A stretch of 64,000 nt of DNA, taken from assembly GCA_023055425.1 (NCBI GenBank), contig JALGPY010000005.1:74999495-75063494 (forward strand). Direction: 5' to 3'. The position numbers were made by a program, and so were the translations under genes. This DNA is from Linanthus parryae (lineage: Eukaryota > Streptophyta > Magnoliopsida > Ericales > Polemoniaceae). The number at the start of each line of letters is the position of its first letter. The stretch's first letter is position 1. This document shows, in pieces, positions 22,522 through 64,000 of this stretch. Under the pieces are notes generated by a model. The model was not told the origin of the DNA, made no database searches, and saw only the letters and a program-made list of their open reading frames with translations.

Positions 22522-22576
22522 TCTACAATCCCATCCCCACCCCCCATTTAAAAAGAAGGCATATTGGATTACTTCA

Positions 22577-25976: not shown

Positions 25977-26908
<932 letters not shown>

Positions 26909-27565
26909 CAAGGGTGATACCAAAGATCCGAGGTGCGTCAGGAAAGGGAGTGGCATTCGAGGAGGGAGAAGCTCTTTGATCAGGAACTAAGCAATCCCCA
27001 ATCATAGCTTGCTTGTGGTGTTTATGGTTTGTCCTTTTTACTTGAAATTTCCCTTTGCCCTTAACCATAGCAACATGCGGTTCATCCCTCACATCAACCG
27101 TGTCCATCGTCGTGTCTTTAATCTCTATAGCATCAGCTTTTGACTCATGACTCTTCGAAGGAGCAGCAGTTGTCGCAGCCTTTGACTTGGTGGTTTTATT
27201 AGCAATGTGTGCCTCATTAGGGGATGTGATCCACGATATCCAAAGTCGCAGAGGATCCTTAATTTTCTCAAGTAACCGATTGTCAATACCCTCCATGTAG
27301 GGATTTATAGTATTAACCTGCCCCAGCTCTTACACTTTCTGAGTTAGATTCTTAGATCGATCTCCGCAAGCAAATTTCCTAATCACGCACTGCAGCAGAT
27401 ACAGGGATGACATTAAATATTTGAGTAATTTAACAATATTCATTATCAAAACCAGAAGTATTCTACCTGATTAAAATCCTCAGCGTAGTGTGTCATGTCT
27501 TTGGCCCCCTTCAAGATTGGGGCCTTATTCTCTTCCTCAATTAATGTCATGCACAAATGATTAAC

Positions 27566-29079: not shown

Positions 29080-29286
29080 TGATTAACCTGATTATGAATG
29101 GAATAATGGCCAATTCAGAGTGTGGCACAATGTTTCCTTTCTAATGGAAAGGGAAAAATTTTGTCCCAACTCCAGGGAATTACTGCGAGGAGCTACAACT
29201 AACTTTGTGCTTCTTTTTCAAATGCGACTTTCAGTAGTCAACCCAACTCGTTTACACTCTCCCGACTCGCGAGCGTGAAGGTTGAG

Positions 29287-33888: not shown

Positions 33889-33909
33889 AAAGAGAGAAAA
33901 GAGAGAGAA
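33889..33909 (+). other. Purine run, possible polypurine tract of the old Tat element
   Basis: An unbroken 21-base A/G run just beyond the 5' side of the antisense PMD relic. In a plus-strand Tat element this is where the polypurine tract before the 3' LTR should be. A TG start (TGCAAATATACG) follows at 33919. Confidence 0.4.
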
Positions 33910-33918
33910 CTCACAAGT

Positions 33919-34708
33919 TGCAAATATACGTGCAACTGTACTTGAAATGAATCAAAAGTGACTAATCAGTAGTCTATCAATCAGTGACGCCACTTCTGGA
34001 ACTCAATGGGTCGTGACGCTTCGAAAAACACCTCGGTAACCGGCAATGAAAGGAAAATGTGAGCCAACCACGTCACTTGATGCATTTCAGATGCGCCTGT
34101 AAGCATGCGTAGGCAGATGGGCTAATGATGACCTACAAAGGCTAGAGCTCACCCCTAGAGCACATTTTGAATGACTAACAGAGGCGGAGATCTTTCCCCA
34201 CATCTCGCAAAATCAAAAAGATCCTTGGAAGCTAGGGTTTTTCCTTCGAAGATCGCATTTTGATCTCCAAACGCAAAAGAGGGCTAATGTAGATACCCTT
34301 TATTAGCGTCACTATCAGTAGACCATGTGGTGCACCTGAGAGAAGACATCTGTATTCATTTCGTGCTCCATAAAGAACCATAGTATTCTATATGTCTGCA
34401 AGATGCAAATGATTCTAGGACAGAGTCCTTGCATATGTGTCTCGTGCTTACGGGACTTGGGCTGGGGGTGGCTTGGAGGCTAGAGTAAAGATTGCTGCAT
34501 GCGAGGTGCGAGCCTCGTATGCAACCCTCATATGTTATCCAAAGATATGCGATTGGTCCATTCAAGTACCAGAATTTGCGAACCAAGATTCCGATATGTA
34601 CATCCACAAGCCATATAATTAGGTAAACGTTACGACCACGCATGGTTCCGTCACCGTCGTGTATGTGCACCCAAGTTTTCCCTATTGGGCCTGCATATAT
34701 AGGTGGTC
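33919..34708 (+). repeat. Probable remnant of the 3' LTR of the old Tat element
   Basis: Assigned by position only: it lies after the polypurine-like run, and the layout equals that of the intact element (PMD gene, purine run, LTR). A TATATA motif lies at 34691-34702. The right border is not certain and the sequence is too diverged from 51541-52460 to align by eye. Confidence 0.35.
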
Positions 34709-36506: not shown

Positions 36507-37250
36507 TTAAGGGATCGTCACTACGGAAAGATCAAAAGTTTGTACATCTATCGCCCAGCTTGGCGTTTCGGAATAAAAGGTGATTTCATCCTCTTCACTA
36601 GATTTCGAGGCTACTAGGTGAGCAAAAGAATTTCTCTCTATGCTACATGATAAAACTCGATAGCTACAAACATAGAAGCCCTCATTCGACACTCTGCCAA
36701 TACTTGCTTAAGATCTGAGATGGCTTCAGCCCCTTTGATCCTGCCTGCCTTCCATCTCTCAGCAGCTGAATCGCCAAGAGGCTATCAGACCAGGGACGGA
36801 AATACATGTATGCGAGCATGGGCAATGCCCCCCTATCTTTTTGCTTTGATATAGTCATGTAATGGGAAATGATCCTATGCATCACATTTTTTGGAATGTT
36901 GGCCCCCTCTAACTTTGAGACTGTTTACATTGCCCCCCCCCCCCACAAAGTATTTCTGGGTCCGTCCCTGTATCAGACTCTACGTGAATCCTCCGGATAC
37001 CCATTTCTGCCGCGAACAACAAACCTTCGCTGATTGATACCATCTCCGCCATTAGTGGAAGTCGTTTTCGTGGGAAACGGCTCTGCCTTGCCGCCAGAAA
37101 CTGCCCTTGTTCGCCCCGGAGAACCATACCCAACCTCGTCGCTGGCCCGTACTGTCTCCACGCCGAGTCACAGTTCAGCTTTGCGAACCCCGTCTTTGGA
37201 GGAATCCATTTTCCATCTCCAACCGTAGCTTCGCTCTGATCCCTTAGCAA
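36507..37250 (-). pseudogene. LINE ORF2 RNase H domain, split by a hAT MITE
   Basis: FAKLNCDSAW and MAEMVSISEGLLFAAEMG lead to HVESD at about 36980. The frame then resumes as SLLAIQLLRDGR at 36790 after the MITE and ends with RNSFAHLVASKS near 36600. The first acidic residue (NCDSAW) and the second region (HVESDS) are kept. The domain is read with stops and at least one frame change. Confidence 0.75.
36791..36970. mobile_element. hAT MITE, 180 bp
   Basis: Perfect 10-bp terminal inverted repeats (CAGGGACGGA / TCCGTCCCTG), flanked by TATCAGAC at 36783-36790 and 36971-36978, an 8-bp target duplication. The ends and length are typical of plant hAT MITEs. A C-run of 12 lies near the right end. 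Removing the element and one flank copy rejoins the LINE frame as HVESD-SLLAIQLL. Confidence 0.95.
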
Positions 37251-37367
37251 ACCTTTGGCTTTAACTTCTTTGAACCAGTAAAAATACGCCTTGCAATTTC
37301 CAGCTATTTCCTCCGGGTGTTTACCTTTGTTGTTGAAGCTTTCTTCGTTCCGATTGTTCCATATTGC

Positions 37368-38210
37368 CTAGATGGTCATGAAAAACATCTCACACACCTG
37401 CATATTTTCTTTCTTTAGCACCTCCAAAATCAATTCCCTCGCTGGTATGTTTCTTTCCCTCATAAAATCAGCCCCCATCATGGACGCCCAAACTTGTTGT
37501 GTGTGGTAACAAAAGCAGAAGAGATGATCCATTGTCTCAATAGCTTCTATGCACAGTTTGCATTCAAGGGGAACATTTATACCTCTTCTTCGTAAGCTAG
37601 TGGCCACGAGTAAAGAAGAGTGCCAGATACGCCAAGTAGGGAGCATAAACTTCTTTGGAACTTTTAATCTCCAAAGCTTTACATGCCATTTCTCTTCTGA
37701 AGCATTCCTTGAGGTCGTTGCTGTGGGGACCGAGACATTCCTCTGTAGTTTCTTGACCAAATAAATCACATCCTCGGCTTGATTCCAGTAAAGCATGTCT
37801 CGTTCTTCCGCCTGAAAAATTGGTACGGCTAAAGCTGCATCCCAGTCAACCGGCCACAATAATTGTTGAATTTTGTTCATATCCCAAGCACCCGTTTCCT
37901 CATCCATCAATTCTACTCTCGTATCTTCTGCTCCTGGCGGACATGTAGTAATTGTACTATAGGTGTCGAGTCTTGTGAGCCATCTATCCTCGAACACTTT
38001 GATGTCCCTCCCATTTTTAATTTTCCACACCAGCCCCAACTTAAGCAAATCTCTACCTGCAATTATACTTCTGAAAGCGTACGAAACCTGTACTTTTGGT
38101 TTCAAATCGTAATCAAGCAGAGACATGTTACGAAAGTATTTTGTTTTACAAACTTGACATACCAATGAATTCGGATTCCGAAGAAATCTCCAAGCATGAT
38201 TTGCTAGCAT
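37368..38210 (-). pseudogene. LINE ORF2 zinc-binding RVT region
   Basis: Begins MLANHAWRFLRNPNSLVCQV, the conserved segment after the RT thumb, and carries the zinc-binding pattern CKLCIEAIETMDHLFCFC near the end. It is an open stretch of 280 codons of the larger decayed ORF2. Confidence 0.8.
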
Positions 38211-38234
38211 TGCTATATTGAAGTCCTTAAACTC

Positions 38235-39848
38235 TCAAAAACCCATTCCCCCATTGTCATTCTCTTCCTTTAACTTGTTCCATGCAACCCAATGGAATTT
38301 CCTTTTGCTTTCATCACCACCCCGCCAAAACTGTCTAAAAACCCTCTCCAAGTCGTGGCATGTTTTGTTTGGCAACAGAAAACAGCTCATCGTATAATTT
38401 GGTATCGCTTGTATGACTGCTTTTATCAAAACTTCCTTACCAATCTTCGGAAGTGATTTCCTCTTCCATCCTTTCATCATGTGAAAGACCTTTTCAACCG
38501 GGGGGCTGAAAATCGTCGTCTTGCTTCTTCCCAATTGTGTTGGGAGCCCCAGATACGAATCATGTTGAACCTTGAGCTGAACTCCACATAAACCGCTTAG
38601 TGTCGTGCGCTCCTCAGCTCCCACATTTTCAGATAACACCACAGAGGAATTCTGCATATTCAAAACTTGACTCGAAGCTGTCTCGTACTCCTCTAAGATA
38701 TCTCGCAAGACCGCAATTTCCTCCGCTTTGGATTGGAAAATAATAAACTGTCATCTACGAAAAATAAGTGAGACATTTTGGGCCCACCCCTTGAAGCTTC
38801 AAGGCCTGTCAGCCGACCTTCCTGCATTTCCACTGTTAAACTTCTTGATAAAGTTTCACTAAAAATAAAAACAAATAAGGAGAAAGTGGACATCCCTGAC
38901 GTAGCCCACGCTCCGAGACAATCCTTCCTTGTACCTCCCCATTCACTATGAGGCTGTAGGAAACTGTAGAGATACAATTCATAATCAGATTGATCCATCG
39001 CGAACCGAATCCCATCCGTTCCATCATAGCTCTGAGATATTCCCACTCAACCTTACTCATATCCTCTTTGAGTGCTAGGAAACCAGTCTTCCCTTTCTTT
39101 CGATTCTTCATAGAATGTAATAGTTCAAAAACCATTAACACATTATCTGATATCAATCTGCCAGGAACAAAAGAAGACTGATTTTCTAACATCAAGGAGT
39201 CAAGAATGCGCTTTAGCCGATTGGCTAGAGCTTTCTATAATTTTATAAATAGTAGAGAACAAACTGATGGGGCGTAAATTAGTAGTTTTCCTAACCTGTT
39301 TCACCTTTGGAATCAGAGAAATCAACGTGTGGTTAAACTCAGAAATATCTCCATCTCCGTAAGCACTGATAAACATAACTGTTCCACTTCAACCCCTACT
39401 AAATTCCAATATCGTTGAAAAAGATAGCTGGGAACCCATTGGATCCTGGAGCCTTTGCCGGCGCCAGCTGGCTAAGAGCTAACCAAACCTCCTCACTCGT
39501 AAAATGTAGATCCATCGCAGCTCTTTGATGCGGTTGAATCGCCTCCTCCACGTTACTAATCAGTCCCTCCATCTGAGCTATCGAGGGATTTGAGGAGGTA
39601 AAAGTTTCCGAGAAATAGTATTCCAAGATAGTTGTGACTTCCACCTTTTCTGCCCTCCATATTCCTTGTGTATCCTCGAGTCCATCAATATGATTCCTAT
39701 TTCGTCTGATCGAAGCCTTTCGATGAAAGAAACCCATGTATTGATCTCCCTTCTTCATCCAGACTTCGGGAAATCTTTGCCGCCACATATCGTCCTCTCT
39801 AAGCAAGAGTTGAAGAATAGAATGTCGTAATACCTTTTCCTCTGCCAC
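38235..39848 (-). pseudogene. LINE ORF2 reverse transcriptase, broken
   Basis: N-terminal part WMKKGDQYMGFFHRKASIRR (39399-39848). Fingers and palm at 38836-39195: SFVPGRLISDN, ALKEDMSKVEWEYL and RGLRQGCPLSPYLF. Catalytic loop FFVDDSLLF (FVDD) is in another frame near 38760. The thumb is at 38235-38708 (YLGLPTQLGRSK, KGWKRKSLPKIGKEVL). Motif A lacks four residues: family members read DMSKAYDRVEW, here DMSKVEW, a 12-base in-frame deletion. There are frameshifts between blocks. Confidence 0.8.
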
Positions 39849-39909
39849 GACTGCTACTGTTTGAATCCCTTCGGTCAGCTGAAAACCGTGATCTGTGCCT
39901 CTAGAGCTG

Positions 39910-41160
39910 CTATCTTACACTTCCAAACACTTCATTATTCCATCCTTTGAGAACCGAGACCATCCCCTTCAACTTACCAGCCATAGAACCACCTGAAGTA
40001 CTCCAAGTGTCCCTGATAAACTGACCAAAGCGTTGATCTTTCATCCACATAGACTTGAACTGAAACCGTTTCCTAATTTTGTTGTTTCTGACAATACCCG
40101 AAAGCCATACCACCTGCAAAGGAACATGATCAAACACCTCGGCAATGAGATGATCTACCTTGCCCCAACCAAACACATCTATCCATCCGTGCGTGACAAG
40201 ACATCTGTAAATACGTTCCCTAATCGAGAATTCGTCACTTTGATTATTTGACCAAGTGTACCGAACTCCCACATAGCCCAAATCTCTCAGTTGAAGGCGA
40301 AGAATAACGCTTGTAAAATCCTCTATCTGACTAAAGGAGACTGGTCTTCCTCCTTCCTTTTCAGAAATAGACGTAAAAGCGTTGAAATGGCAAATAACAC
40401 ACCATGATTGGTCCCGCTTACAAAGACGCTCAAGCAAAGTCATGGAATTGTGTCGTTCTGTTGGATTAGGTGCCCTAGAGGCAATCTAGTTTATTATGAA
40501 CAATAAATTGGCTAGAACATTCATTGTATTATTTATTAAATATTTTATATAATGAAGTCCTTAGATTTATAATTGTGTTGTTTATCTTAAATATCCTTAG
40601 TCCATTTAATGATTTATCTTAAATTGACCTATGATCGCAGTCACGATTTATCTTAAATTGACCTATGATTGCGCTACACCGTGACGTGATAATTTTCTCG
40701 TTAGAAGTTATCAAGGAGACCTCAAAGGTACTTAACACTATTCTCTTACCATCGTCATGATTTCTCTTCCTCTGATCCTTGGAGGGTCTTGATCGGATAA
40801 TTATATTGTTCTTCCGCTGCGTATCCATGATAAAAACCCTACACGTTCCTCTCTAACCGGATCTCCGTAGAAACCAGTCAAAAACCCATGCTTTGATTCA
40901 CTAACAATGGAGAAAAAACCATGTATGTAATATTTTTACATCTTATCGAGATGAAAAGATACCTCGTCATCCCACATAAGATCTAAACCTCCTCTTATGT
41001 CTTCACATTCATGAAAAATCCCGTTACGAAAACCTAGCATGTCACTGATTCGCTCCATCTCTGTTGCATACAAATTTTGTCTCCATTAAAAAGACAATAT
41101 TGGAATTCTGCCTCCTTAGAAGATTGTAAAGAGAAATAACGCTACGGGGGTTCCCAAGCC
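39910..41160 (-). pseudogene. LINE ORF2 apurinic-like endonuclease, interrupted
   Basis: Starts near 41160 with GLGNPRSVISLYNLLRR and IVFLMETK (catalytic Glu kept), continues to GFLTGFYGDPVR, is cut by a solo LTR, and resumes HNSMTLLERLCKRDQSW, then VRYTWSNNQSDEFSIRERIY. The usual SDH motif near the end is not clear. A one-base frame change lies near the LTR junction. Confidence 0.75.
40459..40843 (+). mobile_element. Internally deleted solo Ty1/copia LTR
   Basis: Starts TGTTGGATTAGGTGCCCTAG and ends with AAAACCCTACA, flanked by CGTTC at 40454-40458 and 40844-40848. Its first 150 and last 100 bases match those of the 1.4-kb copia LTR at 48426-49853; about 1 kb in the middle is missing. It was therefore a copia insertion in the LINE endonuclease that lost its interior and then part of the LTR. 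Confidence 0.9.
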
Positions 41161-49868: not shown

Positions 49869-51456
49869 CAGGTCGTAGAACATAACATGATATTATGTGT
49901 TTACGATTTCAGTTCATACACCGTATTATGTTTTATTACGCGAAAACTGAAAAGTTGGCATAGTAGATGCAATATTGAATTTGATTCAATCAAACAAGAC
50001 CCAATTTTAACATTGGATGTTAGAATTGGTGAGTTTAATCACATAGGATGTGAATAATTGGGTTCTTGAAAAATTAGGGTTCATGGGCACATGATTGAAA
50101 AGGGGTTTTCAATTATGGAACAAAATTATGGAAATAAATCCATAATGAAACAACCTTGCTTGGGCAACAAGGAAGAGGGAAGGAGACTAGGGCCGAAACC
50201 CTAGCCGCCCGCCCCTCCCTTGCGCGCCAAGCAAGGTCGCGGGCCTCTAGGCGTGCGGCGGTCCTAGGGTTCGGGCCACTTGTTGGCTTGAGCCCTTTGG
50301 ACCGTTGTAAAACCCTAGTTACCGAATTTCATTAAAATTGAACAAACGCGTTAAAAATTAGTTTTAACTGTATTATGTGCTTTATTGCATGGTGGATGGA
50401 TATGGCCTAGGATTGTGGATGTTTATTGTTTTGTGGTTTGGTTTACGGCCTGCGAGCTGATCAAATTAATGTAATAATTAATTAAGTTTTACGGCCTGCG
50501 AGTCGTCTTTTTCTCCTCGACATGTGAGGCTTTTGTTATTTATTTATTCTAGATGTTAGGCTAGAATTAGAAATATTTAGATGATAGCCAAGAACGTGGA
50601 GAAGAAGACCGGAGAACCAAAGGAGCCAAAAGACATCCCTAGGCGCGCAACTATGGTGGAGCACATGGAGATGAGCTCGGCACTTTAGGGCAATTAGATA
50701 TTATCATTGGCTTGATAATATCATTAGTCTAGGGGCCATATCCATGCCACGTTTTTTTTGTTTTGTGGATGTTTATTATTCATGCCTTGTTATTTATTTT
50801 GTGTGTATGACGCTACTAGCAAAACGATAACAAGATAATAATAAACAAGGTTGGTCTTTTATTGTGGATGGCCCAATCCAAATAAGTAGACCATGTTGAT
50901 AAGATCAACCAAACAACTTAAAAGAAATCCCTCAAATAAATATTGCGTTTTGCCTTCTCTTGCCAAAACACCCTTCATGATCATGGCCTATTAAAATTCG
51001 GGCTTGCCAAAGCAAGGCGATTATAATTTTTCATGATGTGTTGCGGACGACGCAAGCTAGTAATGCGTGTATGTTGAAAGCAAGAGGTTGGACGCAACTA
51101 GGCAAGATTCAATTAGATTGATGAGCTTAGAGGCATGACAATTAGGAGTTATCCATTGGATAAAGAATAAAAGGAATTTATTCACCTAATTGGACCAAGA
51201 GTTGCATGGTATGCAATTGGAATGGTTCCTACCTAAATAACCAATTCTTGGGTGACTTGCCAAAGCAAGCTCAATAAGAAGTGAAAAAGGGATCTTGGAC
51301 CCACTAGAAAGTATAAAGATATTTTCCGCTTTAATAGTGAGGGCTATTAATCCGAAGAAAATAGTGGGAGCTATATTTAATGATCTAGCCATTGTTAAAT
51401 ATAGTCAAATTGTTCAAAATACTAAATTGCATATTTCTCGTTTTGTAGAATTCCAA
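49869..51456 (+). other. Copia 5' leader
   Basis: Untranslated leader between the primer site and gag. It contains the hairpin at 50187-50204 and GC-rich patches at 50186-50300. No supported ORF. Confidence 0.6.
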
Positions 51457-51540
51457 ATGGCAAACAACAACGCATCGAGTTCATCCCTACGATCTGTCCT
51501 TGAGAAGGATAAATTGTCTGGAACAAATTTCCTTGACTGG
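51457..51540 (+). pseudogene. gag: Ty1/copia gag, first 28 codons only
   Basis: The ATG at 51457 opens a frame reading RSVLEKDKLSGTNFLDW, the well-conserved N-terminus of plant copia gag. It is cut after that tryptophan by the Ty3/gypsy LTR. The rest of gag-pol, if kept, lies beyond the right end of the window. Confidence 0.85.
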
Positions 51541-52460
51541 TGTGCACAAGAGATTCCGGCGGGGAGACCTCCGTGTACACCGTACGTAGTGGATCAGGGA
51601 TCGCACAGGAAGAATAGGGGTGTGTGTAGGGAGAGAGCAAGTCAGTAGCAATGTCTGAGAGAGAGACAGAGGTTTGGTAGAGCTTCCGCGTATGGCAGTG
51701 TGTCCCCCCTTGTATGGAAAGGTTAACGATGTATATATACTGGAGAACATGACCGTTGTAGTGTGGTTAATGCGCCCATTAATGGCGGCTTAATTAGCTT
51801 AACCATAACGGCACGTTCGTCCGAGTATATAGGAACCGTTAGAGCACGTGGTGCGCGAGTACCGGAACCGTTACGAGGTTGACCGGGTTTGACCGGATTG
51901 ACCGGGTTTATGGAGCTCGTGCCATAAATCTCTCAAAACAGTTACTAAAGGTCGCGCGCGGGCTTGGCTCGCACGCGACAGGGCTTACTCTAGCCTCCAA
52001 ACCACAAAGTCCCTACAAGTCCCGTGCAGTGGTATGCGAGGGCTCTGTCTCGCAGCCCCCACATGGATCAGCTCGGCTGGTGATCCTGTGTGTGTGGAGC
52101 ACAATATGGTGTGCTGGATGGTTGCCACGTGGCCTAGATCTGCCATGTCATAAAGCAGTATCTACATTAGCCCCCTTTCTGCGCGTGAAGGCTCATAGCT
52201 GTGTAGGCTTCCATGCGCGGAAACCAACATGCGCGTCGTCGCCACGCACCAATTCAAATACGGGTAGGTTCAGCCCCCGTGCGTGTAATTATGACCTAAA
52301 ACCCCTAGAGTCGTGCCGTCTGACCTTTAGGGTTTTAGGCGTGACGTCAGCCCGTCCTGTGATTGCGCGACACGACGGTGACGGTTGCGATTCGACTACT
52401 GAAGGGACGCAACCCTTCATTCTTCTGGATAAATACCTTGTATCCCATCATTGCAAAGCA
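51541..52460 (-). mobile_element. 3' LTR of the Tat-lineage Ty3/gypsy element
   Basis: Bounded on the left by the sudden end of copia gag (51540) and on the right by a pyrimidine run that is the polypurine tract on the minus strand. Ends TG...CA: TGTGCACAAG and TTGCAAAGCA on +. 920 bp. On the minus strand a TATATATA motif at 51731-51740 would give a U3 of about 720 and an R-U5 of about 190 bases. The long + frame at 51879-52637 is inside this LTR and not a gene. The inner border is inferred; the partner LTR is outside the window. Confidence 0.65.
52429..52435 (+). promoter_or_regulatory. TATA-like motif for the antisense PMD gene, at the LTR inner edge
   Basis: ATAAATA lies about 30 bases before the LTR/PPT junction on +. 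It would start a transcript near 52460, whose 5' UTR would begin with the complement of the polypurine tract. Inference from position only. Confidence 0.35.
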
Positions 52461-52475
52461 TTACTTCTTTCTCTT
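52461..52475 (-). other. Polypurine tract of the Ty3/gypsy element
   Basis: The minus strand reads AAGAGAAAGAAGTAA just before the TG of the LTR. This is where plus-strand DNA synthesis would be primed. Confidence 0.55.
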
Positions 52476-52848
52476 AAAGTGAATGGTACCCGGAGATCTT
52501 CGAGAGCAGATCCAGATAATCAATCACCAGTTCAGAACTGCAAATCGTATTCTCCAATTGTGTATATCCAGGCAAGCTTCAAGGAAACAAGGTTGGCCTC
52601 GTTTACTTTTGATTTAAAATACCAGTGTTTGCCTTGAATCGCATTGAATCTGTAAATCCATGAAATTTGTGAAGAGGCTTTTGATCTTTGAACCCGCTTC
52701 GTTTTGATCTTTCAACAATATCAACTCCCCAATTTCTGAAATCGGCACCGAAGCTGTTTGCTTTGTTTTGCATAGATCTCAAATTTCAAAATTCAAACTG
52801 AAGTGTGCTGTGGTATTTCTCCCCCCTTTTTCTTGCCCTTTCGCAGGA

Positions 52849-55800
52849 ATGGCCAAGACAAGAGTAACCAGACCCGTCAAGGAAGACGAAGAGATACCGG
52901 AGCTTCCGCAGGCTCTGTGGCGTAAAGCCCCCTTTCTGGGTGGGAAAGACTTTTACCATGCGAGGGTGAAGGCGAAGAGAATGCCTGATCCTGTTCCTGC
53001 TGAGCAATTGCTGACGTTGACTCGCCCAGTTAACTCGGCCCTGCTCGAATGGGTTGGTTCCGAGGATGTAGTCCGATTGGGGATCGAGAACGGGTACTTC
53101 CCGTATACTGCGATTTCTACTCAAGCATTCGTTCAGAAATTGGACTACATGGATGAGTGGATTGACCACGTATTGGATCATCATGCCGAGACGCTTGATA
53201 AAGCCGGCATTTTCTTTGCTATCCGTGCTATGAGGGGTGCTGCCGTGAAGTTGGATCAGTCCATGCTTCTAGACCTTCTGTCCCGTTACTCGCCCGCGAC
53301 TCACACGTTTCATTTTGCTGAGTTCGAGGCTGCCCCCACGCTCGAGGACGTTCAAATGCTGTATGAGCTTTCCCCCATGGGCGAGGTGGACCCCTTGAGT
53401 CACTTGAGGACATCTGCTGAAATGGCCTTGTACGCGCAGATGGAGGAGTGCCTAGCAGAGGTAAAGAAAATCTCTACTCGGTGGACCACTACGAAGCCTC
53501 TTCCGAACTGGCAGCTAGTGGATACGTCTGCGAAGAATACCTGGAACAAGTGGTTGCAGTACTTCTTCCGAGACTATGCAAACAGCAGCATTACTAAGAA
53601 GCTTTTGAGCGAGGACCCGGAGGCCGAGAATTATGTAGAGGGCAAGGGTTATCATTTGACCCTTTGCGCCTTTCTCTGCGCTTGGCTGTCGAGATACCTG
53701 ATGGATGGTCACCCCCATGACGGGGTCTTCTACCATGTGCTGCCACTTGCCGTAAGGCTCGCTCTTGGCCAGAGAGTCGCACTCGGACCCTTGGTCCTGG
53801 GGACGCTATATTACAGGCTGGATCAGCTGGTTCTGGCGATGAGGGAATCGCGTGGCCGCCTCGATGTTCTGACCTTTGTCAATATCAGCTTTTTGACAAT
53901 GTGGGTTTTCGAGCGCTGGCCGTCTTATGCTCCAACTCCCCTCCCACTTGAGAAGTGGTGTCCCCCAGGCGAGACGGAGGCGCGCAACAGCGGAAGGGCT
54001 GCGAGATGGTTTGGAGCAAGCAACACCAAGTGTACTTGGAGTTTGATATGCGACAAACGAAAGGAGTTTACTGCCAGGCCCTATGCCACACGTGTTGAGA
54101 ATGTGCGGTGGTTTCCAAAGCTATACCCTTCCAGAGGTATGGTCTTGTCAGAAGACCTTCTCTTTGAAAAGGGGCCGCATTTCCACGAACGCTATCGTGA
54201 CTTCTTCTGTTGGTGTCTGCGAGGTTCTCTACCTGCCCTTGCAGAGCATATTCGTGAGCTCGCGCCACGGTATGAAAGACTTACAGTGGATGTTGACCCT
54301 ACTCGAGTCTCTCCTCAGTTTGGTTTTGATGCGGTGGCCCCATCGATCTGGCCGCAGTCTATTATCAGAGGGTGCTACAAGCGTTTGCTGACAAAGGAGT
54401 GCAAGACAGTCCTCATGAGCAATCTTCCCTTTGAGCAGCCTGCGGGAACTCGCAAGGGTGGTTGTTCCCAAAACTGGATCGCATACTGGGTTGCCCAGCA
54501 AACGAGGATTGAGACGGAGGCGGCGGCGCAGCCAGGAAAGGCCCCCTTGATCAAGAGAAACTCCTTTCCGTTTCGCCCCAATTGCAGTTTGAGCGAGTCT
54601 GAGTATGGTTGCTACTCACTGTGGGACCGCGAGAATCATTTGTGTCCCGATTTCATTCTGAAGGAGCAAGTCGACGCAATCAAGAAGGGTGACACGCAGG
54701 TCATCAAATATAGCAAGGCGTTTGCTGAGGTAAGCAATTTCCTTGTGTGCTTTGAGCCTTTTGATTTCCTCGGGCTGATGCTTTTCGTTCTGTATTGTTT
54801 AGTGTCATGTGCGGAGGTTCGCAGCTGGTGATCGCTCCAAATCGCTGGTGGACACCATTGTTGCCACTAGAAGGAAGGGGGAGTCGTACCGGTTAGCATG
54901 GAGGATGGATGCCGAGGTCGAAACAAAAGTTCGCGGAGTCATGAATACTTTTGCTGACTCGCTGATAGACAACCCTCCGGCTCCGTCTCCTCCTAGAGAC
55001 GACCCGTCCCCTCCAGCGACTGCGGCGCCGAGAGCGAAGAGACCTAGGCAAAAGGGAATTACGATTTCTTCCCCTAGGAGTGCTCCAGCTTCTCCCCCAG
55101 TGAGGTCCCTTTCCATCAAGGACAAAGGCAAGGGTCGTATGCCCAGCAAGGCGCGAAAAGATCTCGCAGTTGAGACTTTCGTTCCGTTCAACCAAGAGGA
55201 GGAAGAGAGACAGGAGACCCAGGCAAGTGATGAAGAAGCAACAGTTGTGATGTGCGAGGAAGAATCAGGAGGTACTTCCGTCGCGTCTCCTTGCCCTTTG
55301 TCTAGACTTATTTGTAGTTCTTTTCTTTGAACCAAGTATGTATTCGCAGATGATGATGATGAAGCCGTCGGTGGCCTTGTGGCCAAGAGGCAAAAGAGAG
55401 ATGCCCATTCTGGCATTTCAGATGATCCTATAAGCGAGGATGTTCTTGCTGAATCCCGGAAGACAGCCGCGGAGGCTGCTGAAAGAAGAAGGCAGCGAGA
55501 GGAAGAGGAGCTCGAGCTTGTGAAACAGCGGAGCCTCGAGGAGCTGCATGTTGACGACTTAGTGCGTCCAGCTGGCGAGGAAGACGAGCTTCCCGAAGAA
55601 GTGGCTCCTCATGTGGAAGAGGAAGATGAGGTTCCTGGAGAGGACGCAGCAGAGCTAGAGCAAGTCCAAGCGGACTTCGCAGAGATCGCAGGTGGCGATA
55701 AAGGTGAGATCTTCAATCTCGCAGTTACTTATAGAGATGTAATTGTGGGTGCGTTGAAGCACGGTGTGTCAAAGCCTGACATTCGCCGTTGGTTGGTAAG

Positions 55801-57125
55801 CAAATGCGGAGAACCCTCAGGTAATTATTTTGAGTGATATGCGCATACTAGGCTGTGGCCACTTGAGGCAAAATCATGACTGGTTTACTCGCGTCCCAGG
55901 TCATGCTTCTCTTAAAGATTTGCTTAGTGAGGATACACTGATAGGGCACGGTTCCACGTCCCTAGTGTACGATGAGGATACCTCAATCCCACCTTCGCGT
56001 GGAGGTGCTTATTCTTAGCTTCAGTAAAGATAGTGAAATAACTTATAACACAAGTTACCTCATATTATCGCATTTGGTATCGCAGGTCATGCTATGGAAC
56101 CTGAGCTGGAGCAGAGAAGTCAGCCTTCTGCATCCCATGTTCCAATTTCGAGCTCCCATACCGAGAAGCCTGTCGCAGCTGCCGGACACGCACGTGAGCA
56201 TCTCGAAGATGTCATCGAACTCTCCGATGATGTCGAAGCTGATGCTGTGCCGATGGACGAAGGTGTCCGTACTGGTGGTGAGGAAGAAAGGACAGGTGAT
56301 GCTAACATTTTCGCATCTGGGAGTGTCCGTCCAGCGACTTCGGCTGTCCCTTCGCCTCCGGCGATGACTGAACCAGAAGCACCCATTCCTGCGTGGAGCA
56401 TTTGGGGCTCGCAGGTTGGGAATGTAGTCGCAGCTGGTGCGGCCTACACTCTTCCTCCTGACTATGAGAGGTTGGAGCTTGCAGCTGATAGGAGAGCCAT
56501 GGAGCGAGGGCAGTCTTCGAACAACCCGGTGGCCCGCATCCCTTCTCTTCATGAAATTCTGGAAGGCACTGGTAAGTAAAGATTTACTGTTCGCACGTCG
56601 CATTATTTGCTTGCGAGTTCTGGCATTATAACCATTTTTGATGTCTCAGGTTTGAAGCAAACCGATGTAGACTGGGTGGTTCGAATGCGTCTCAGATACC
56701 CCCGATCGTTTGTGAGATCTCTGGAGATCGGACCTTTTGACAGGAGGCTATTTCTTACTGAAGCCATCTGGATACTGGAGCAGCTGTCTGCGGCTACACC
56801 TGCGACCATTTCGGCCCAGAGTGCTGAATTGCTGTGTGGCATGTGCCAAAATCTCTTGTTCAAAGTCCAAGGCAGACTTGGTTTTAAATTCCTCAAGGAC
56901 AGAGTTACATTGATTCGCGCAGCTGTAACTTTGAATCTCGGTCACCAGAATCTCGCAGCTGAGATGCAGAAGGTGGAGCAGCAAAAGCAAAGGGTTGATG
57001 AAGCTGTAAAGCTGTATCATGAGATGCATGCTAAGTGCGAGCAATTGAAGCAAGAAGTGAAGCAAGTGGAGAAGCTGAGCGAGCAGTTCGAGCCCCAAGA
57101 CTCCTTAATCAAGAATTTGTTTTGA
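52849..57125 (+). CDS. Plant mobile domain (PMD-C type) protein carried antisense in a Tat Ty3/gypsy element
   Basis: Coding exons are 52849-54729, 54803-55271, 55350-55820, 55900-56004, 56086-56571 and 56650-57125. All introns are GT-AG and about 70-80 bp; phases agree and give 1,295 residues. The ATG stands two bases after a CAG acceptor, so a 5'-UTR intron is likely. Residues 1-600 are the PMD: ELPQALWRKAPF, MLLDLLSRYSPATHTFHFAE, PTLEDVQMLYELSPMG, FLCAWLSRYLMDG, VFERWPSYAP and FFCWCLRGSLPAL. Then come a basic, proline-rich linker, a long acidic part (EEDELPEEVAPHVEEEDE), a fold with DIRRWLVSK, and a C-terminal coiled coil (about 1230-1285). Host PMD proteins (MAIN, MAIL1) are nuclear and affect silencing and genome stability. 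The gene converges on pol of the same element. No stop or frameshift was found. Exon 5 has the weakest support. Confidence 0.85.
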
Positions 57126-58589
57126 CTTTTCGAATTTTGAAAAGAAAACAGGAAATGGCTGAGACATTAATGTAATGTTTTGAAACATTAATGTGATATT
57201 GCTAGGGTTTCTCCCCCTTCTTTTTTTTAACAACAAACACTGAGTTTGCCCGTTTTGCCCTTTTCGGGATTTGATTGGACATTTCCGTGCATATCCAATT
57301 ATGACATCAGCAATTGATTTTCTTCTTGATTTTCGCGCTAATTTCTCGGCAGATAAGCACGCTTCCGTTGGGAAGTCCATCCGAATCATGACTATCCGTC
57401 ATTTATTAGGATACGCAACTGAATCGTCGTAGCCTTTAGTAGGGTAATTGATTGTTACCGCTTTTCAAGGCGTAAGTGATTGAACTTACCCTCTTTTTTG
57501 AATTTTGCTGACTCATCTTAGGCGACCGAAGAGTCTCCACAGGGCCTATATAAACCCTGTCTTTGCCATTTGGGTTCTTCATCCCAAACATGTGCTTTGC
57601 CGTGAGTCCTTATGACTGCTGGCTTCAACGCTTGTTTTTCGTTGATTCATGGCAACTTCAAGTTTTGAATCCTGAGTTTGCGCTTTGTGCCATAGAAATA
57701 GTTTCCAAGATCCACTTTATGAGGCTTATTGCTGTTTATAACCGTCATAAAGAGGATGCAGATAATACCTCATGTGTGTTCGAAGAAATTTCTTCGTGTA
57801 TTATGTGTGCAGGTCATGTTTCCGGCCGCCTCGTGGCGAGGTGCAGCGCCGAAGTGACCGTGCTACCGTCTCGTAATGAACGGCGGAATTCTCCTCCAGC
57901 ATCCCTGGAGGAGAGTTTCTTGCCTCTTCGTTCTTGAACTCAGGAGGCTCGCCAACGCCCTTGTCTATCATGACAAGGAGCCCAGTACCAGAGGAATGAC
58001 GGCTTCCCCTGTTTTGCACGACGGCATATGCCGGAACAGGTGGTTCCTCTGGTACATATCTTGATCAGACAGGGGTTTCGTCAGACCCTAAGATCTTTGG
58101 ACGTGGATTCGCCCGGCTCTTGCCGCTAAGGATGTAGCGAATGGCGAGTTAATCTCTTCGCAGATGCATCCTACTTGCTACAGATCTTTGGCCGCGGATC
58201 TGCGTACTGTGCTGCCGGTATCAGGACCGGTGGATTCTCCCTTTTCTTAGTCGAGAGTTCCCTTGGCGCATCTCTGGCTTACCAGCCATTTTTCGAATGT
58301 ATTGTAAGCCATGTTGGCTGCGTAGTTAGATTCGAGCTTTTCGCTTGTAAGCTGCTATCTAGATAGATAAATTGTAAGTCATTTGACTCATAATGATATA
58401 TAGCTTTTGTACTATTTGCTCTCTTTGCAACAAAATACAATTTCGCATGCGTTTCGGCTTGTTTTGCCTTGCATAATGCCATGTAATGATTTCACATATG
58501 CGACGTCAATGCGCAGATGTTTCGCTAGATCATTCGAGATCATAATTTCGCAGTTGTGCCATCTTGACGAATGGGCTTGCAGGTGGTCG
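57126..58589. other. Spacer between PMD gene and repeat array, with clustered inverted repeats
   Basis: The PMD 3' UTR probably lies here. Inverted repeats at 57890-57914 (10-bp stem TCTCCTCCAG/CTGGAGGAGA) and 57985-58055 (12-bp outer stem GTACCAGAGGAA/TTCCTCTGGTAC, inner arms CCTGTT/AACAGG and a central CGGCATATGCCG palindrome). No supported ORF. Confidence 0.6.
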
Positions 58590-60010
58590 TTGTAAATCGT
58601 ATGAGATCACGTTCACAACTTTGCTATCATAACATATAGTTTTTTTTTTTTTTTTAACAGATCAATTGAGATCATTGAGCGGTGTGAATTGCTATCATAG
58701 AAGATAGGCTTTATTAGAGGATTGCTTGAGATAATTTCTCGCATGAATTGCTACCGCAGCAGGTAGACCTTTAGAAGGTCTAGCAAGATGGTTCTGCAGT
58801 TACGTTACCATCGTAACATACGGACTTAGGTGATCAACTAAAATCACTTTGCGTATAAATTGCTACCGTAACAGATAGGCTTGAGAAGATCATATAAGAT
58901 CGCATTTGTGTAAACCGCTATCGTGAGAGATAGGTTTTTGATGATCGATTAAGATTGGCTTAAAAAGATCATACAAGATCGCGCTTGAGTAAACCGCTAT
59001 CGTGAGAGATAGGATTTTGATAATCGATTGAGATCGTTTTTGTATTTTTGCTGCTATCGTAGGAGATAGGCTTATGTGATCACTTAAGATCGCATTTGCA
59101 TCGGCTGCCATCATAAGGGATGGGCTTTAGATGATTAATTAAGATCGCGTTTATGTTGACTGCTTATCGTGAGAGATGAGCTTTGGATGATCTTTTAAGA
59201 TCGCATTTGCATTGGTTGCCATCGTAAGAGATGGGCTTTTAGATGATCAATTAAGATCACATTGGCTGCCATCGTAAGAGATGGGCTTTTAGATGATCAA
59301 TTAAGATCGCATTTGCATTGGTGGCCATCGTAAGAGATGGGCTTTTAGATGATCAATTAAGATCACGTTTATGTTGACTGCTATCGTAAAAGATAGGCTT
59401 CGGATGATCACTTAAGATCGCATTTGTATTGGCTGCCATCGTAAGAGATGGGCTTTTTTAGATGATCAATTAAGATCGCGTTTGCTATCGTAAGAGATAG
59501 GCTTTGGATGATCGATTGAGATCGCGTTTGCTATCGTATGAGATAGGCTTTGATGATCAATTAAGATCGCGTTTGTGTTCGGCTGCTATCGTAAAAGATA
59601 GGCTTTAGATGATCGATTGAGATCGCGTTTGCTATCATATGAGATAGGCTTTGATGATCAATTAAGATCGCGTTTGCGTTTGCTGCTATCGTAAAAGATA
59701 GGCTTTAGATGATCGACCAAGATCGCGTTTGCTACCGTATGAGATAGGCTTTGATGATCAATTAAGATCGTGTTTGTGTTCGGCTGCTATCGTAAAAGAT
59801 AGGCTTTAGATGATCGATTGAGATCGCGTTTGCTATCATATGAGATAGGCTTTGATGATCAATTAAGATCGCGTTTGCGTTTGCTGCTATCGTAAGAGAT
59901 AGGATTTGATGATCAGTTAAGATCGCGTTTGCTATCGTAAGAGATAGGCTTTGATGATCACTTAAGATCGTGTTTGTATTTGTTACTATCGCAGCGAATA
60001 AATCATTGTT
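58590..60010. repeat. Hairpin tandem array in the 3' region of the Ty3/gypsy element
   Basis: More than 20 irregular units, mostly 45-75 bp. Each contains CTATCGTAAGAGATAGGCTT (stem CTATC/GATAG) followed by GATGATCAATTAAGATCGCG. Higher-order units of about 110-130 bp occur at 59500-59900. Satellite-like arrays in the 3' untranslated region are known for Tat-lineage elements. It lies exactly between the 3' ends of two converging genes. Not a CRISPR array: there are no unique spacers, and the host is a plant. Confidence 0.85.
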
Positions 60011-60209
60011 AACAGTTATAACGAATTAGATAAAGCGATATAAACAGCTAAAAATATGAACTTCTCATTTGGGAGAATTCTTTTATTATGACATTCTCAT
60101 ATGGGAGAGATAGGATTACAATCCTCTCATATGGGAGAGGAGATTGCGAATATCGTAGCCACATGAGACATTAAGCAACGTTATCATAAAACGTATGAAA
60201 TAAGAGAAG
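60011..60209. other. Post-pol region with CATATGGGAGAG motifs
   Basis: Three close copies of CTCATNTGGGAGA (60064-60141). Related CCCATATGAGG motifs follow the decayed pol at 23460-23570. Confidence 0.6.
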
Positions 60210-63200
60210 TCAAGGATAGTACTTCTTGATCCAGCGCATGTTGACTGAGCTTGGAGTTGAGGTTGTGCCGTGCAACCTTCGTATGCTGCAGTAGCCGCTA
60301 TCGAAGACTTCTGTGACTTCGAAGGGTCCCTCCCAATTAGCTGCGAACTTTGGGTGGGTTGCCTCTCGCATGCAGTGATCAGATGCGCGCAGGACCAGGT
60401 CGCCAACTGCGAAATCCCGTCGCTGGACTGTCTTGTTATAGGCGCGAGCGATTCTCTCTTGGTACCGCTTGTTAGTCCTTTTGGCTTGTTCTCGCTTTTC
60501 TTCCAGCAAGACTAAATCGTGATCGCGTTGATTTTCATAGAGTGCGTGGAAGGCCAGCCTTGCCGAATTGACTCTGACCTCCGCAGGTACCACAGCTTCG
60601 GCCCCATAACATAGTAGAAATGGCGAGGCCCCTGTAGGTGTCCTTGGAGAAGTTCTGTAGGCCCACAGAGCTATGTTAAGGGAGTCGGCCCACTTCTTGT
60701 GGTCATCTGCGACCATCTTGCTCAGAATTCGCAACAGCGTTTTGTTAGTCGCTTCGGCTTGTCCATTTCCCTTTGGATAATAGGGGGTGGAGCATATTTG
60801 CCTGATATTGTACTCCGCGAGTTTGGTAGCTACCTGACGATTAACAAAAGGAGTACCGTTATCTGAAAGAATAGTATTTGGGATTCCGAACCTGCATACG
60901 ATGTTTTCCTGGATGAAGTTAACCACAGCCAGCGCGTTTGCCGTCTTCAGTGGTATTGCTTCCACCCATTTGGTGAACAGCTCGGTTGCAGTGAGAATGA
61001 AGTGGTTCCCATGTGACGTTGGTCGGATGGGGCCAATGAAGTCCAGAGCCCATGTATGAAATGGCCATGGCGTCCCTAATGCATGTAGATCCACGGCAGG
61101 AGCGTGCACTAGGTTCCCTTTGAATTGGCATTCTTGGCAGCGTCGCACCTTGGTGCGGCAATCGACTTCCATCGTGGGCCAGAAGTATCCGATTGAGAGG
61201 AGTTGTCTGCATAATTTCGCACCTCCCTGGTGTTCCACCTGATGAGAAAGGTCCATGACTTCTTGTGCTTCCCTGCCGTCTAGACATCGCAGCAAGTTGC
61301 CTTCGTGACCTTTTCGCCAAAGCAGGTTTTCCTGAACCAGGTATCGAGAGGCTTTCCTCTTCAATTTGTCGGCTTCTTTTCTCGATTCGGGTACGGTGCC
61401 CTGGGTGAGGAATTCAAACAATGGCTTCCTCCAGTCTGTGTCGTCATCGGTTAGAGCGACGAGTAGAGAATCTTTGATTAGTGCGCAACTCTCGCACTTC
61501 CCTTGTATCAGGGCTGCAGCTGTTGACATGCCTGGCCAATGAATGCCATATCTCTGAGCTTTCCTGTAGATTGACACCTCGCTTTCTCCGCAAGCGTGTT
61601 GGTGAATCTTTTCTAACAGCTGTTGTCCCTCTTGCTCGGAGACACATCGCATGAGTATTCCTCCAGGACCTTTGTAGTAAAGGGTGTTGTCGTGGATGCA
61701 GTATCCTTTCGTGAGTACCCAGCTTTCGCTACTGGTGCCTTTCGCAATAGCTTGCAAGATTGCTTTTCGCCAGTCTGCGTCATCCATGTGTTCATCGTCG
61801 CACGCATCTTCTGTTAATGCCGACGATGTTCGCACTTCGATGGAAATCCTTGCGGGGCATTTGTCTATGCTGACCTTAGATCCCAGAGTTGCTAAGGCGT
61901 CTGCATGCCTGTTGTCCGCTCGGGGTTTGTGCTCGTATTTCACGTCGCAGAATTGCTGCATCAGCTTTTGCACTAAGGTACGGTATGGCAGGAGGTTGAT
62001 CTCCTTTAAACCATATTCGCCCGAGGCCTGCTTAACAATCAGCTTGGAATCTCCCATGACTGTTAAGTTGCTCACTTCCAAAGCTTTCGCCGCACGGAGC
62101 CCCGCGATCAGAGCCTCGTATTCCGCCTCGTTGTTCGTGACTGCGAAGTTGAGTTTTGCGGACATCTGTATGACTTCACCGTCCGGCTTTGTCAAGACTA
62201 TCCCAATGCCTCCACCTTTTCTGGTTGACGAACCGTCGAAGTGGAGGGTCCAATAGGGCACGTCAATCGCGTAGATTTCAGGGCCTTCGAGCTCTTCCTC
62301 GATCACAGGTTCGTGACTGTTGTCGGGGAACTGTGCCAACAGATCTGCTACCGCCTGCGACTTGATCGCTCTTGGTTTCACGCATGTGATATCGTATTGA
62401 GAGATAGTCATGTACCATTTCGCCAATCTTCCGCCCGGAGTAGTGTGAGTTAGAAGGTATCTTATGGGGTCGCTTTTGGTGACCACCACTACTTTGTGCG
62501 ATGCAAAATAGTGTCTCAACTTCTCTATTACGAAGAATAGAGCAAGGCAATGACGTTCGATGTCCGTGTACCTTGATTCAGCAGGCTGCACAATGCGAGA
62601 GATGTAATAGATAGCCCTCTCTTGTCCCTCATAGATCTGAGCCAAGAGCGCTCCTATAGATTTCCTTGTCGATGTAAGGTATAGCAGAAGCGGCGATCCC
62701 AGTTGAGGCGCGATCATTATCTTTGGGGATGTGAGTAGCTCCTTTAGCTTTTCGAATGCGGCTTCGTGATCAGGAGCCCAGTTGTACGCGGCGTCCTTCT
62801 TGAGGAGAGTGCTGAAGCAGCATGTGATTTCGGCGATTGCCGGGATGAATCTCCGCAGATATGACAATTTTCCCAAGAATGTTTTCAAGGTACTTTGGTC
62901 GTGAGGTGGCGTCATGCTGGTGATGGCTGACACTTTTGCAGGGTCAGGCTCGATCCCTTGGCGATGAACTACACATCCCAAAAACTTCCCCGAGGTCACG
63001 CCGAATGCGCATTTCATGGGGTTCATTTTCAGTTGAAAGCTCCTGCATCTGTTGAATACCTTTCGCAGGTCTGCAAGGTGATCTGCTTCATACTTGGATT
63101 TGACTACCAAGTCATCCACATAGAATTCCACTTCTTTGTGCATCATGTCGTGGAATAGAGCCATCATGGCCCGCTGATAGGTTGCGCCTGCATTCTTAAG

Positions 63201-63815
63201 ACCGAATGGCATTACCGTATAGTTGAATACCCCCACGGGAGTGATGAATGCAGTTTTCCTTGCATCTTCGGGATCCATATTGATTTGATTGTACCCGCTG
63301 AAGCCGTCCATGAAACTGAACATGCGATGGCCTGCCGTTGAATCAATGAGCAAGTCGATATTAGGCAGTGGGAAATCGTCCTTGGGACAGAAGCGATTGA
63401 GATCTCGGAAGTCCACGCAGATGCGGAGCTGTCCGTTCTTCTTCACCACTGGCACGATGTTGGCCAACCATGTGGGATGGTGATTTGGCTCTATGAACTT
63501 GGCGTCTAGGAGTTTGACGATCTCCTGTTTGATCTTCACGTTGAGTTCTGGCCTGAAACTTCTGGTGCTTTGCTTGACCGGTTTAGACCCTGGGATGATG
63601 TCTAAACGGTGCATGGTGATGCTCGTGTCCAGACCCGGCATCTCGTCATATTCCCATGCGAACACGTCCTTGTATTCGGTTAGGAGCTGCAGCAGTCCTT
63701 GTTCCTCTTCGCTTGTGAGGTCCGCACTCAGGAAGACTGGTCTTTTCTTTTCCTCGTTCGGGCTGAGGAACACTTCCTTAAGCTCTTGCTTTTGCGGTCT
63801 TGGCCTGTCTTCCAT
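60210..63815 (-). CDS. pol: Tat-lineage Ty3/gypsy pol: RT, RNase H, second RNase H, integrase
   Basis: 1,201 open codons. RT at residues 100-275 (VPVVKKNGQLRICVDFRDLN, FYVDDLVV with YVDD at 232-235). First RNase H at 370-495: the usual catalytic Asp block is LYLTSTRKSIGALL, so the Asp is lost. Second, archaeal-type RNase H at 522-645, with LHFDGSS, NNEAEYEAL, MGDSKLIV and NRHADALA intact. Two H2C2-like integrase zinc modules follow (681-777 degenerate, 794-896 with H858, H862, C893, C896). The integrase core has D925, D985 and E1021 (D-x35-E), and a C-terminal domain ends WIKKYYP. Two RNase H domains are the hallmark of the Tat lineage. Protease and gag would lie to the right, partly outside the window; the upstream frame is closed by a TGA at 63948-63950. 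Confidence 0.95.
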   Translation of the reverse strand: MEDRPRPQKQELKEVFLSPNEEKKRPVFLSADLTSEEEQGLLQLLTEYKDVFAWEYDEMPGLDTSITMHRLDIIPGSKPVKQSTRSFRPELNVKIKQEIVKLLDAKFIEPNHHPTWLANIVPVVKKNGQLRICVDFRDLNRFCPKDDFPLPNIDLLIDSTAGHRMFSFMDGFSGYNQINMDPEDARKTAFITPVGVFNYTVMPFGLKNAGATYQRAMMALFHDMMHKEVEFYVDDLVVKSKYEADHLADLRKVFNRCRSFQLKMNPMKCAFGVTSGKFLGCVVHRQGIEPDPAKVSAITSMTPPHDQSTLKTFLGKLSYLRRFIPAIAEITCCFSTLLKKDAAYNWAPDHEAAFEKLKELLTSPKIMIAPQLGSPLLLYLTSTRKSIGALLAQIYEGQERAIYYISRIVQPAESRYTDIERHCLALFFVIEKLRHYFASHKVVVVTKSDPIRYLLTHTTPGGRLAKWYMTISQYDITCVKPRAIKSQAVADLLAQFPDNSHEPVIEEELEGPEIYAIDVPYWTLHFDGSSTRKGGGIGIVLTKPDGEVIQMSAKLNFAVTNNEAEYEALIAGLRAAKALEVSNLTVMGDSKLIVKQASGEYGLKEINLLPYRTLVQKLMQQFCDVKYEHKPRADNRHADALATLGSKVSIDKCPARISIEVRTSSALTEDACDDEHMDDADWRKAILQAIAKGTSSESWVLTKGYCIHDNTLYYKGPGGILMRCVSEQEGQQLLEKIHQHACGESEVSIYRKAQRYGIHWPGMSTAAALIQGKCESCALIKDSLLVALTDDDTDWRKPLFEFLTQGTVPESRKEADKLKRKASRYLVQENLLWRKGHEGNLLRCLDGREAQEVMDLSHQVEHQGGAKLCRQLLSIGYFWPTMEVDCRTKVRRCQECQFKGNLVHAPAVDLHALGTPWPFHTWALDFIGPIRPTSHGNHFILTATELFTKWVEAIPLKTANALAVVNFIQENIVCRFGIPNTILSDNGTPFVNRQVATKLAEYNIRQICSTPYYPKGNGQAEATNKTLLRILSKMVADDHKKWADSLNIALWAYRTSPRTPTGASPFLLCYGAEAVVPAEVRVNSARLAFHALYENQRDHDLVLLEEKREQAKRTNKRYQERIARAYNKTVQRRDFAVGDLVLRASDHCMREATHPKFAANWEGPFEVTEVFDSGYCSIRRLHGTTSTPSSVNMRWIKKYYP

Positions 63816-64000
63816 GCATTCGGGCGCTTCTTTGAGTTTCTCCTCTGGAGTGCCCTGTGTTGGCTCTTCTGTCAGCGCAACTTGCTCGATTTGATTGATT
63901 TGCCCAGGGACATCCCCATGCCCGTGTGAGGACGTCCCCGCGCACCTTCATATGCGATAGCATTTCTTCCCGTTGGCGTAGAAGCTCTCTATCTCCTTGC
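63816..64000 (-). CDS. Linker between protease and RT of the same polyprotein (partial)
   Basis: In the pol frame upstream of the first Met, the minus strand reads SHGHGDVPGQINQIEQVALT and then EEPTQGTPEEKLKEAPEC, an acidic linker. Before it, TGA at 63948-63950 is preceded by KEIESFYANGKKCYRI in the same frame, which looks like the end of a Tat protease. The stop may be a mutation in this copy. The window ends here. Confidence 0.5.

Follow-up and report, generated by a model that had tools for sequence, protein, structure and literature searches.

A multi-exon plant mobile domain gene lying antisense within a Tat-lineage Ty3/gypsy retrotransposon of Linanthus parryae

How can a gene cut by introns persist in an element that multiplies through RNA, and does such a gene belong to the element at all? 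A retroelement should lose any intron that can be spliced out of its replicating RNA. The question is raised by a 64,000-nucleotide (nt) stretch of the Linanthus parryae genome (assembly GCA_023055425.1, contig JALGPY010000005.1, positions 74,999,495 to 75,063,494), hereafter the window, within which all positions are numbered. Here a gene for a plant mobile domain (PMD) protein lies on the plus strand, inside a Ty3/gypsy long terminal repeat (LTR) retrotransposon of the Tat clade that reads on the minus strand (element 1). A second, decayed and diverged Tat element (element 2) carries a related gene in the same antisense layout, and our conclusions on introns and selection are based on these two elements in one window. 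We regard it as almost certain that the anatomy is as described below and that the gene is an integral, selected part of this Tat lineage. The best overall explanation, to which we assign a probability of about 0.6, is a Tat-lineage accessory gene with a counter-silencing role; taken singly, that role is argued by analogy and may hold with slightly less than even odds.

The antisense gene and the element that carries it

The gene runs from an ATG at 52849 to the end of a stop codon at 57125, exactly as in an earlier sequence-only reading, which had proposed that a Tat element carries an entire PMD gene of six exons in antisense; the gene model, the domain match and the pol domain order all uphold that proposal. 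Joined, the six coding exons form a single open frame of 1,295 residues. Each of the five introns is GT-AG; they measure 73, 78, 79, 81 and 78 bp, lie in phases 0, 1, 1, 1 and 1 with matched frames, and are richer in A+T (54-67%) than the exons (47%). Between 52200 and 57300 the longest open stretch has 707 codons, whereas 500 first-order Markov sequences of equal composition reach 294 at most. The parts of the gene, all on the plus strand, are as follows (slashes mark splice junctions).

52849 to 54729, plus: coding exon 1, 627 codons, holds the plant mobile domain
54730 to 54802, plus: intron 1, 73 bp, phase 0, GAG/GTAAGC...TTTAG/TGT
54803 to 55271, plus: coding exon 2, with KRPRQK inside, resembling a nuclear localisation signal (NLS)
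55272 to 55349, plus: intron 2, 78 bp, phase 1, GAG/GTACTT...TCGCAG/ATG
55350 to 55820, plus: coding exon 3, NLS-like KRQKRD inside
55821 to 55899, plus: intron 3, 79 bp, phase 1, TCAG/GTAATT...CCCAG
55900 to 56004, plus: coding exon 4, 35 residues
56005 to 56085, plus: intron 4, 81 bp, phase 1
56086 to 56571, plus: coding exon 5, acidic, holds VIELSDD
56572 to 56649, plus: intron 5, 78 bp, phase 1
56650 to 57125, plus: coding exon 6, ending in the stop codon; C-terminal stretch looks coiled-coil-like by eye

An alternative donor in exon 3 would give a shorter in-frame form ending at 55703; the longer form, with the donor after 55820, is favoured because homology to element 2 continues beyond 55703. 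An earlier six-exon model of 1,261 amino acids, in which the exon 3 and exon 4 ends had been guessed, was replaced by the present one, in which all introns are GT-AG. The PMD profile match, the protein database search and the tblastn search of the window were run with that earlier model, whose PMD exon is identical. A longer N-terminus, read in frame from an ATG at 52483, was also dropped: its donor is weak, and element 2 appears to have no coding counterpart there.

The Pfam profile comparison that the sequence-only reading had proposed places PF10536, the plant mobile domain, at residues 122-498 (E=2.7e-26, 93 bits against a gathering cut-off of 34.9). KRPRQK starts at residue 706 and KRQKRD at residue 796, the middle of the protein is acidic, and VIELSDD at residue 1018 resembles a SUMO-interaction motif; for these NLS-like and SUMO-interaction-like labels we assume the generally used motif definitions. 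The open reading frames (ORFs) that hold exons 2, 3, 5 and 6 gave seven Pfam matches, every one under its cut-off. PF04195 (TRP28) had no match at E<=1 in the 1,261-residue protein or in those same ORFs, and exon 1 had none at E<=1 among PDB sequences. Searches for relatives were made in collections that are apparently poor in plant sequence: in the protein database 7,992 candidates were scored with none at E<=0.001, no relatives were found in the viral contigs searched, and none of 11 pattern matches in prokaryote genome contigs was confirmed.

The gene sits between the polypurine tract and 3′ LTR on one side and pol on the other. The corresponding features of element 1 are these.

51541 to 52166, minus: 3′ LTR, about 625 bp; outer end placed by eye (TG at 51541 or 51543)
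52167 to 52185, minus: polypurine tract, a purine run adjoining the LTR start
58873 to 59991, no strand assigned: array of tandem repeats separating the antisense gene from pol
60210 to 63947, minus: pol ORF with reverse transcriptase (RT), RNase H, second RNase H, two H2C2-like segments and integrase core (Pfam)

The inner end of the LTR is set by the junction of the polypurine tract with the LTR, AAAGGGGGCTAA/TGTAGATAC in minus-strand reading, at 52167/52166. Within pol, Pfam places RVT_1 at residues 169-326, RT_RNaseH at 418-518, RVT_3 at 570-687 and rve at 962-1058. A second RNase H thus stands ahead of the integrase, as in the Tat clade of Ogre/Retand type, and RT, RNase H, second RNase H and integrase is the order given for the angiosperm Tat lineages Ogre and Retand (PMC6317226; here and below, what is taken from PMC6317226, PMC5418596, PMC7264820, PMC8616336 and PMC7156037 concerns the accessible parts of those papers). 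The window covers the 3′ LTR side of element 1, the 5′ end lying past base 64000, and the Tat assignment rests on this domain order. The spacer from pol to the 3′ LTR amounts to 8,043 bp (52166 to 60210), and a gene in that interval, opposite to pol, has the position and orientation of the antisense accessory ORFs called aORF-3R or eORF-3′R. Within pol, residues ~723-965, from the second RNase H to the integrase core, comprise two tandem H2C2-like segments, identical to each other at 31 of 110 aligned positions (E=3e-14, two-sequence comparison).

A second element with the same layout

A gene found inside a transposon need not be part of it. A host PMD gene, or another PMD-bearing transposon, could have been inserted by chance, so that gene and pol would stem from different insertions. 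Nesting does occur here, since the LTR of element 1 interrupts what looks by eye like a copia-like gag ORF (MANNNASSSSLRSVLEKDKLSGTNFLDW, 51456-51540) at about 51540, and PMDs are also found in MULE transposons (PMC5418596). The tblastn search of the window with the PMD protein and pol speaks otherwise. It picked up one more region of each kind, PMD on the minus strand (33385-32228) and integrase on the plus strand (22571-23405). Element 2 is thus oriented opposite to element 1, and in both the PMD gene is antisense to pol. Its recognisable parts are the following.

22571 to 23405, plus: degenerate integrase region, 61% identity over the first 166 residues, 6 stops in those codons
25414 to 25838, minus: antisense exon 3 remnant (25838-25493) and intron 3 (25492-25414)
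27048 to 27556, minus: end of exon 1 (27556-27467), intron 1 (27466-27390) and start of exon 2 (from 27389)
32228 to 33699, minus: degenerate antisense exon 1, start codon at 33699, PMD homology 33385-32228
34272 to 34287, plus: polypurine tract, with the element's own 3′ LTR from 34288

The PMD regions share 33% identity over 404 columns (tblastn, E=1e-50, stops present); the copy in element 2 has five stops in its first 231 codons, plus frame breaks. The stretch spanning polypurine tract and LTR start is identical between the elements in 153 of 248 columns (62%), and the distance from the ATG to the polypurine tract is 663 bp in element 1 and 572 bp in element 2. Because element 2 has the same layout, the gene belongs to the element, and neither a chance capture nor a separate insertion is needed. 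The chance insertion, which we consider hardly credible, is largely refuted by the matching place and orientation of the gene in element 2, flanked there by a homologous polypurine tract plus LTR and, at the opposite side, by a Tat integrase; the proposal in the sequence-only reading that gene and pol form one element is borne out.

Element 2 is far from intact. Within the expected exon 1, at ~27.6-32.2 kb (27670-32174), nothing matches the antisense gene, and this gap probably represents later insertions of other DNA. Exon 2 (28.1 bits against 23.5 for the best of 60 shuffles) and exon 3 (42.0 against 23.1, also best of 60) are recognisable. By eye, exon 6 seemed to have a plausible homologue in a minus-strand ORF (24316-24672), which failed to beat shuffles and was dropped. 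Both elements also have, by eye, GCTATC...GATAGGC-like motifs that could form a short hairpin (58873-59991 in element 1, 23421-23890 in element 2), and a CTCATATGGGAG-like stretch near the end of pol (60060-60145 and 23480-23580). Elsewhere in the window, minus-strand ORFs at 36909-40485 and 17278-18447 resemble a non-LTR retrotransposon reverse transcriptase and tail.

Two introns have counterparts in element 2. At intron 1, the last 30 residues of exon 1 are identical at 9 of 30 positions and the first 30 of exon 2 at 10 of 30, ungapped, and none of 20,000 shuffles reaches either score. The two flanks are parted in element 2 by a 77-bp GT-AG interval, against the 73-bp intron of element 1. 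When the exon 1 end was scanned at every offset on the same strand from 23400 to 34290, this site was the best, scoring 34 with the runner-up at 27. At the DNA level the last 90 bases of exon 1 score 14.5 against 5.5 for the best shuffle; for the first 90 bases of exon 2 the two values are -3.0 and 7.5, and because this DNA alignment stays below shuffles, homology of the exon 2 start rests on the protein comparison. Judged by these alignments, intron 1 occupies a homologous codon in both elements. For intron 3, a 79-bp GT-AG interval (25492-25414) adjoins the end of the exon 3 remnant; it has the length of intron 3 in element 1, the same phase 1 and the donor TCAG/GTAACT against TCAG/GTAATT (shared context TCAG/GTAA). 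The intron sequences of the two elements bear no recognisable likeness, with alignment scores below the best of 200 shuffles. Gene and introns have probably long travelled together with these elements.

This divergence also permits a look at selection, for which the sequence-only reading had suggested dN/dS on the PMD. Over 231 ungapped codons of the domain (226 compared, 5 stops omitted), identity at the three codon positions is 0.54, 0.66 and 0.31, and the proportion of nonsynonymous differences (pN 0.40) is well below that of synonymous ones (pS 0.83), the latter being saturated. The integrase, with 160 of 166 codons compared, gives 0.71, 0.86 and 0.44, pS 0.72 and pN 0.21. Amino acids are constrained in both the PMD and the integrase, the PMD less tightly, and the constraint is underestimated because some differences arose after the element 2 copy had died. 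On this point too, the check that the sequence-only reading had set for itself turned out in its favour.

The same pattern bears on the possibility that the antisense transcript matters, through double-stranded RNA, self-limitation or transcriptional interference, and that the protein is incidental. The gene does overlap the genomic RNA in antisense, and such effects have been raised for related elements (PMC7264820). However, the codon-position pattern is that of selection on amino acids, and phase and splice sites have been kept for two introns across diverged elements; we consider a role of the transcript by itself quite improbable.

How the gene may persist and what its protein may do

Splice sites are strand-specific, and introns that are reverse-complemented in the LTR-driven genomic RNA escape the spliceosome. 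As they stay unspliced there, every reverse-transcribed copy regains an intact intron-containing gene. The sequence-only reading had put forward just this, explaining the survival of the introns by their reversed orientation in the replicating RNA, and the reasoning is sound: intron 1 is matched exactly in element 2, and intron 3 has a counterpart. Splicing would then take place solely in transcripts of the DNA copy, and the protein would need a separate plus-strand transcript. RNA polymerase II may produce that transcript from the gene's own promoter beside the 3′ LTR, as may be compared with gene23 of maize Grande, an antisense gene reported to have its own promoter and a nuclear protein (reviewed in PMC7264820).

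The region that could hold such a promoter is a single feature.

52186 to 52848, plus: putative promoter and 5′ untranslated region (UTR) of the antisense gene

By eye it contains TGACGTCA at 52342, a TATA-like GATAAATACC near 52429 and an acceptor-like CTTTCGCAG right before the ATG. The TATA-like site and the acceptor suggest an internal promoter and an intron in the 5′ UTR. In element 2 as well, a TATA-like TTTATAAAA (33891) and a donor-like sequence (33805) appear to lie upstream of the ATG. A bacterial-type scan of 51500-53000, a model unsuited to a plant gene, returned one promoter-like site (1.5 expected) and four terminator-like sites (1.6 expected).

We hypothesize that the PMD protein, which may enter the nucleus by means of its two NLS-like stretches, would compete with or redirect host silencing complexes of the MAIN/MAIL type at the element's chromatin, and that the element would in this way stay transcribable. 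MAIN and MAIL1 are host PMD proteins that act in silencing (PMC5418596), and PMDs encoded by transposable elements (TEs) have been proposed before as a counter-measure to silencing (PMC8616336). A more specific form of the idea is doubtful: here the element would carry a backwards multi-exon gene of host style, whose product, available only from the DNA copy, would, as a diverged PMD subunit, sabotage the MAIN/MAIL1-PP7L complex or give it a new target.

The main rival is that the protein serves the element's own nuclear steps, such as LTR transcription, import or targeting of the pre-integration complex, or choice of chromatin. The NLS-like stretches would fit this equally, related antisense accessory proteins are nuclear or predicted to bind DNA (PMC7264820, PMC11963269), and a regulatory role in transposition has been proposed (PMC11963269). 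On the other hand, the one clue to function that is tied to the PMD stems from silencing proteins of the host (PMC5418596), and no Pfam domain passes its cut-off in the ORFs of exons 2, 3, 5 and 6, hence none for DNA binding or integrase interaction. We consider this rival unlikely, if worth keeping in view, and retain the counter-silencing accessory gene as the preferred explanation.

Several observations weigh against that explanation or limit its reach. For exons 4, 5 and 6, comparison with shuffles yields no significant match in element 2, an absence that is neutral because the copy is badly decayed, and no counterpart is established for introns 2, 4 and 5. The donor of intron 3 lies 8 whole codons past the last aligned lysine in element 2 and 5 in element 1, ungapped, so that a three-codon indel must be assumed, and the exon 4 side of this intron is unanchored by homology because exon 4 lacks a detectable counterpart. 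No numeric value can be attached to the dN/dS ratio, because silent change is saturated (pS 0.83). The splicing and expression of the gene are predicted from DNA sequence, and its putative promoter and 5′ UTR are placed by eye; TGACGTCA is single-copy in the window, yet at least one copy occurs in 52 of 100 window shuffles, no rarer than chance. An AlphaFold model of exon 1 alone (mean pLDDT 35.7) is unusable, and a PMD family tree lacks a basis because plant relatives were not found in the searched collections.

Known antisense genes and the meaning of the introns

Much of this picture has been published: Tat elements with antisense accessory ORFs, Ogre elements with PMDs, and the proposal that TE-encoded PMDs counteract silencing. 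The sequence-only reading had pointed to reports of antisense extra ORFs with PMD-like domains in Tat elements; antisense extra ORFs are described in PMC7264820 and PMC11963269, and PMDs in PMC6317226. What seems additional here is the multi-exon build, together with introns common to diverged elements; the literature searched, in which coverage of key papers is incomplete, yielded no account of an antisense gene of several exons whose introns are shared.

One close likeness is to the Ogre lineage (Neumann 2019, PMC6317226), which shares with element 1 the Ty3/gypsy Tat affiliation, a second RNase H before the integrase and an extra ORF with PF10536. This likeness is judged from the 3′ part, the primer binding site and the gag-pol junction of element 1 lying beyond the window. 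A PMD was found in 57% of Ogre elements (PMC6317226), and the clades PMD-A1 and PMD-A2 are confined to Gypsy elements (PMC5418596). Antisense ORFs of Retand elements (Vicient 2025, PMC11963269) and of Grande, RIRE2 and PvRetro13 (reviewed in PMC7264820) agree with ours in lying between pol and the 3′ LTR, in antisense, within a long spacer and often with tandem repeats. However, those of Retand are mainly TRP28 (PF04195), for which the gene in element 1 has no match, and the Retand interval ranges from 2,933 to 6,566 bp (PMC11963269), which the 8,043 bp of element 1 exceeds.

Both surveys scored uninterrupted ORFs, of at least 250 codons for Ogre (PMC6317226) and at least 600 bp for Retand (PMC11963269). 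Introns in extra genes are not mentioned in the accessible portion of the former, and the words "intron" and "splicing" are absent from the text of the latter. Surveys of this kind would catch exon 1 alone of a gene such as ours, because the ORFs of exons 2, 3, 5 and 6 have 168-181 codons. A look at antisense and spliced transcripts has been called for (PMC7264820).

MAIN and MAIL1 of Arabidopsis, in the PMD-C group, share the plant mobile domain with the protein described here (Ikeda 2017, PMC5418596; Nicolau 2020, PMC7156037). They are host genes needed for silencing, whereas our gene is encoded by an element and draws its C-terminal part from five further exons.

The HBZ gene of human T-cell leukaemia virus 1 (HTLV-1) is spliced. 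Like ours it is an antisense accessory gene of an LTR retroelement (PMC11963269), although protein and host are unrelated; the antisense promoter of HTLV lies inside the 3′ LTR (PMC7264820), whereas in element 1 an internal promoter would be used.

An exception to intron loss is already known within Tat, in the partially spliced gag-pol intron of Ogre (PMC6317226). The gene described here points to another way: with five introns present, and two of them having counterparts despite saturation at silent sites, introns can persist in an antisense gene over long periods of retrotransposition. PMC5418596 poses as an open question the direction of domestication, from Gypsy elements to host PMD silencing genes or the reverse, and intron positions offer a direct test. 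If the reading of a backwards gene is true, the preserved intron positions would record the direction of PMD transfer between host and element.

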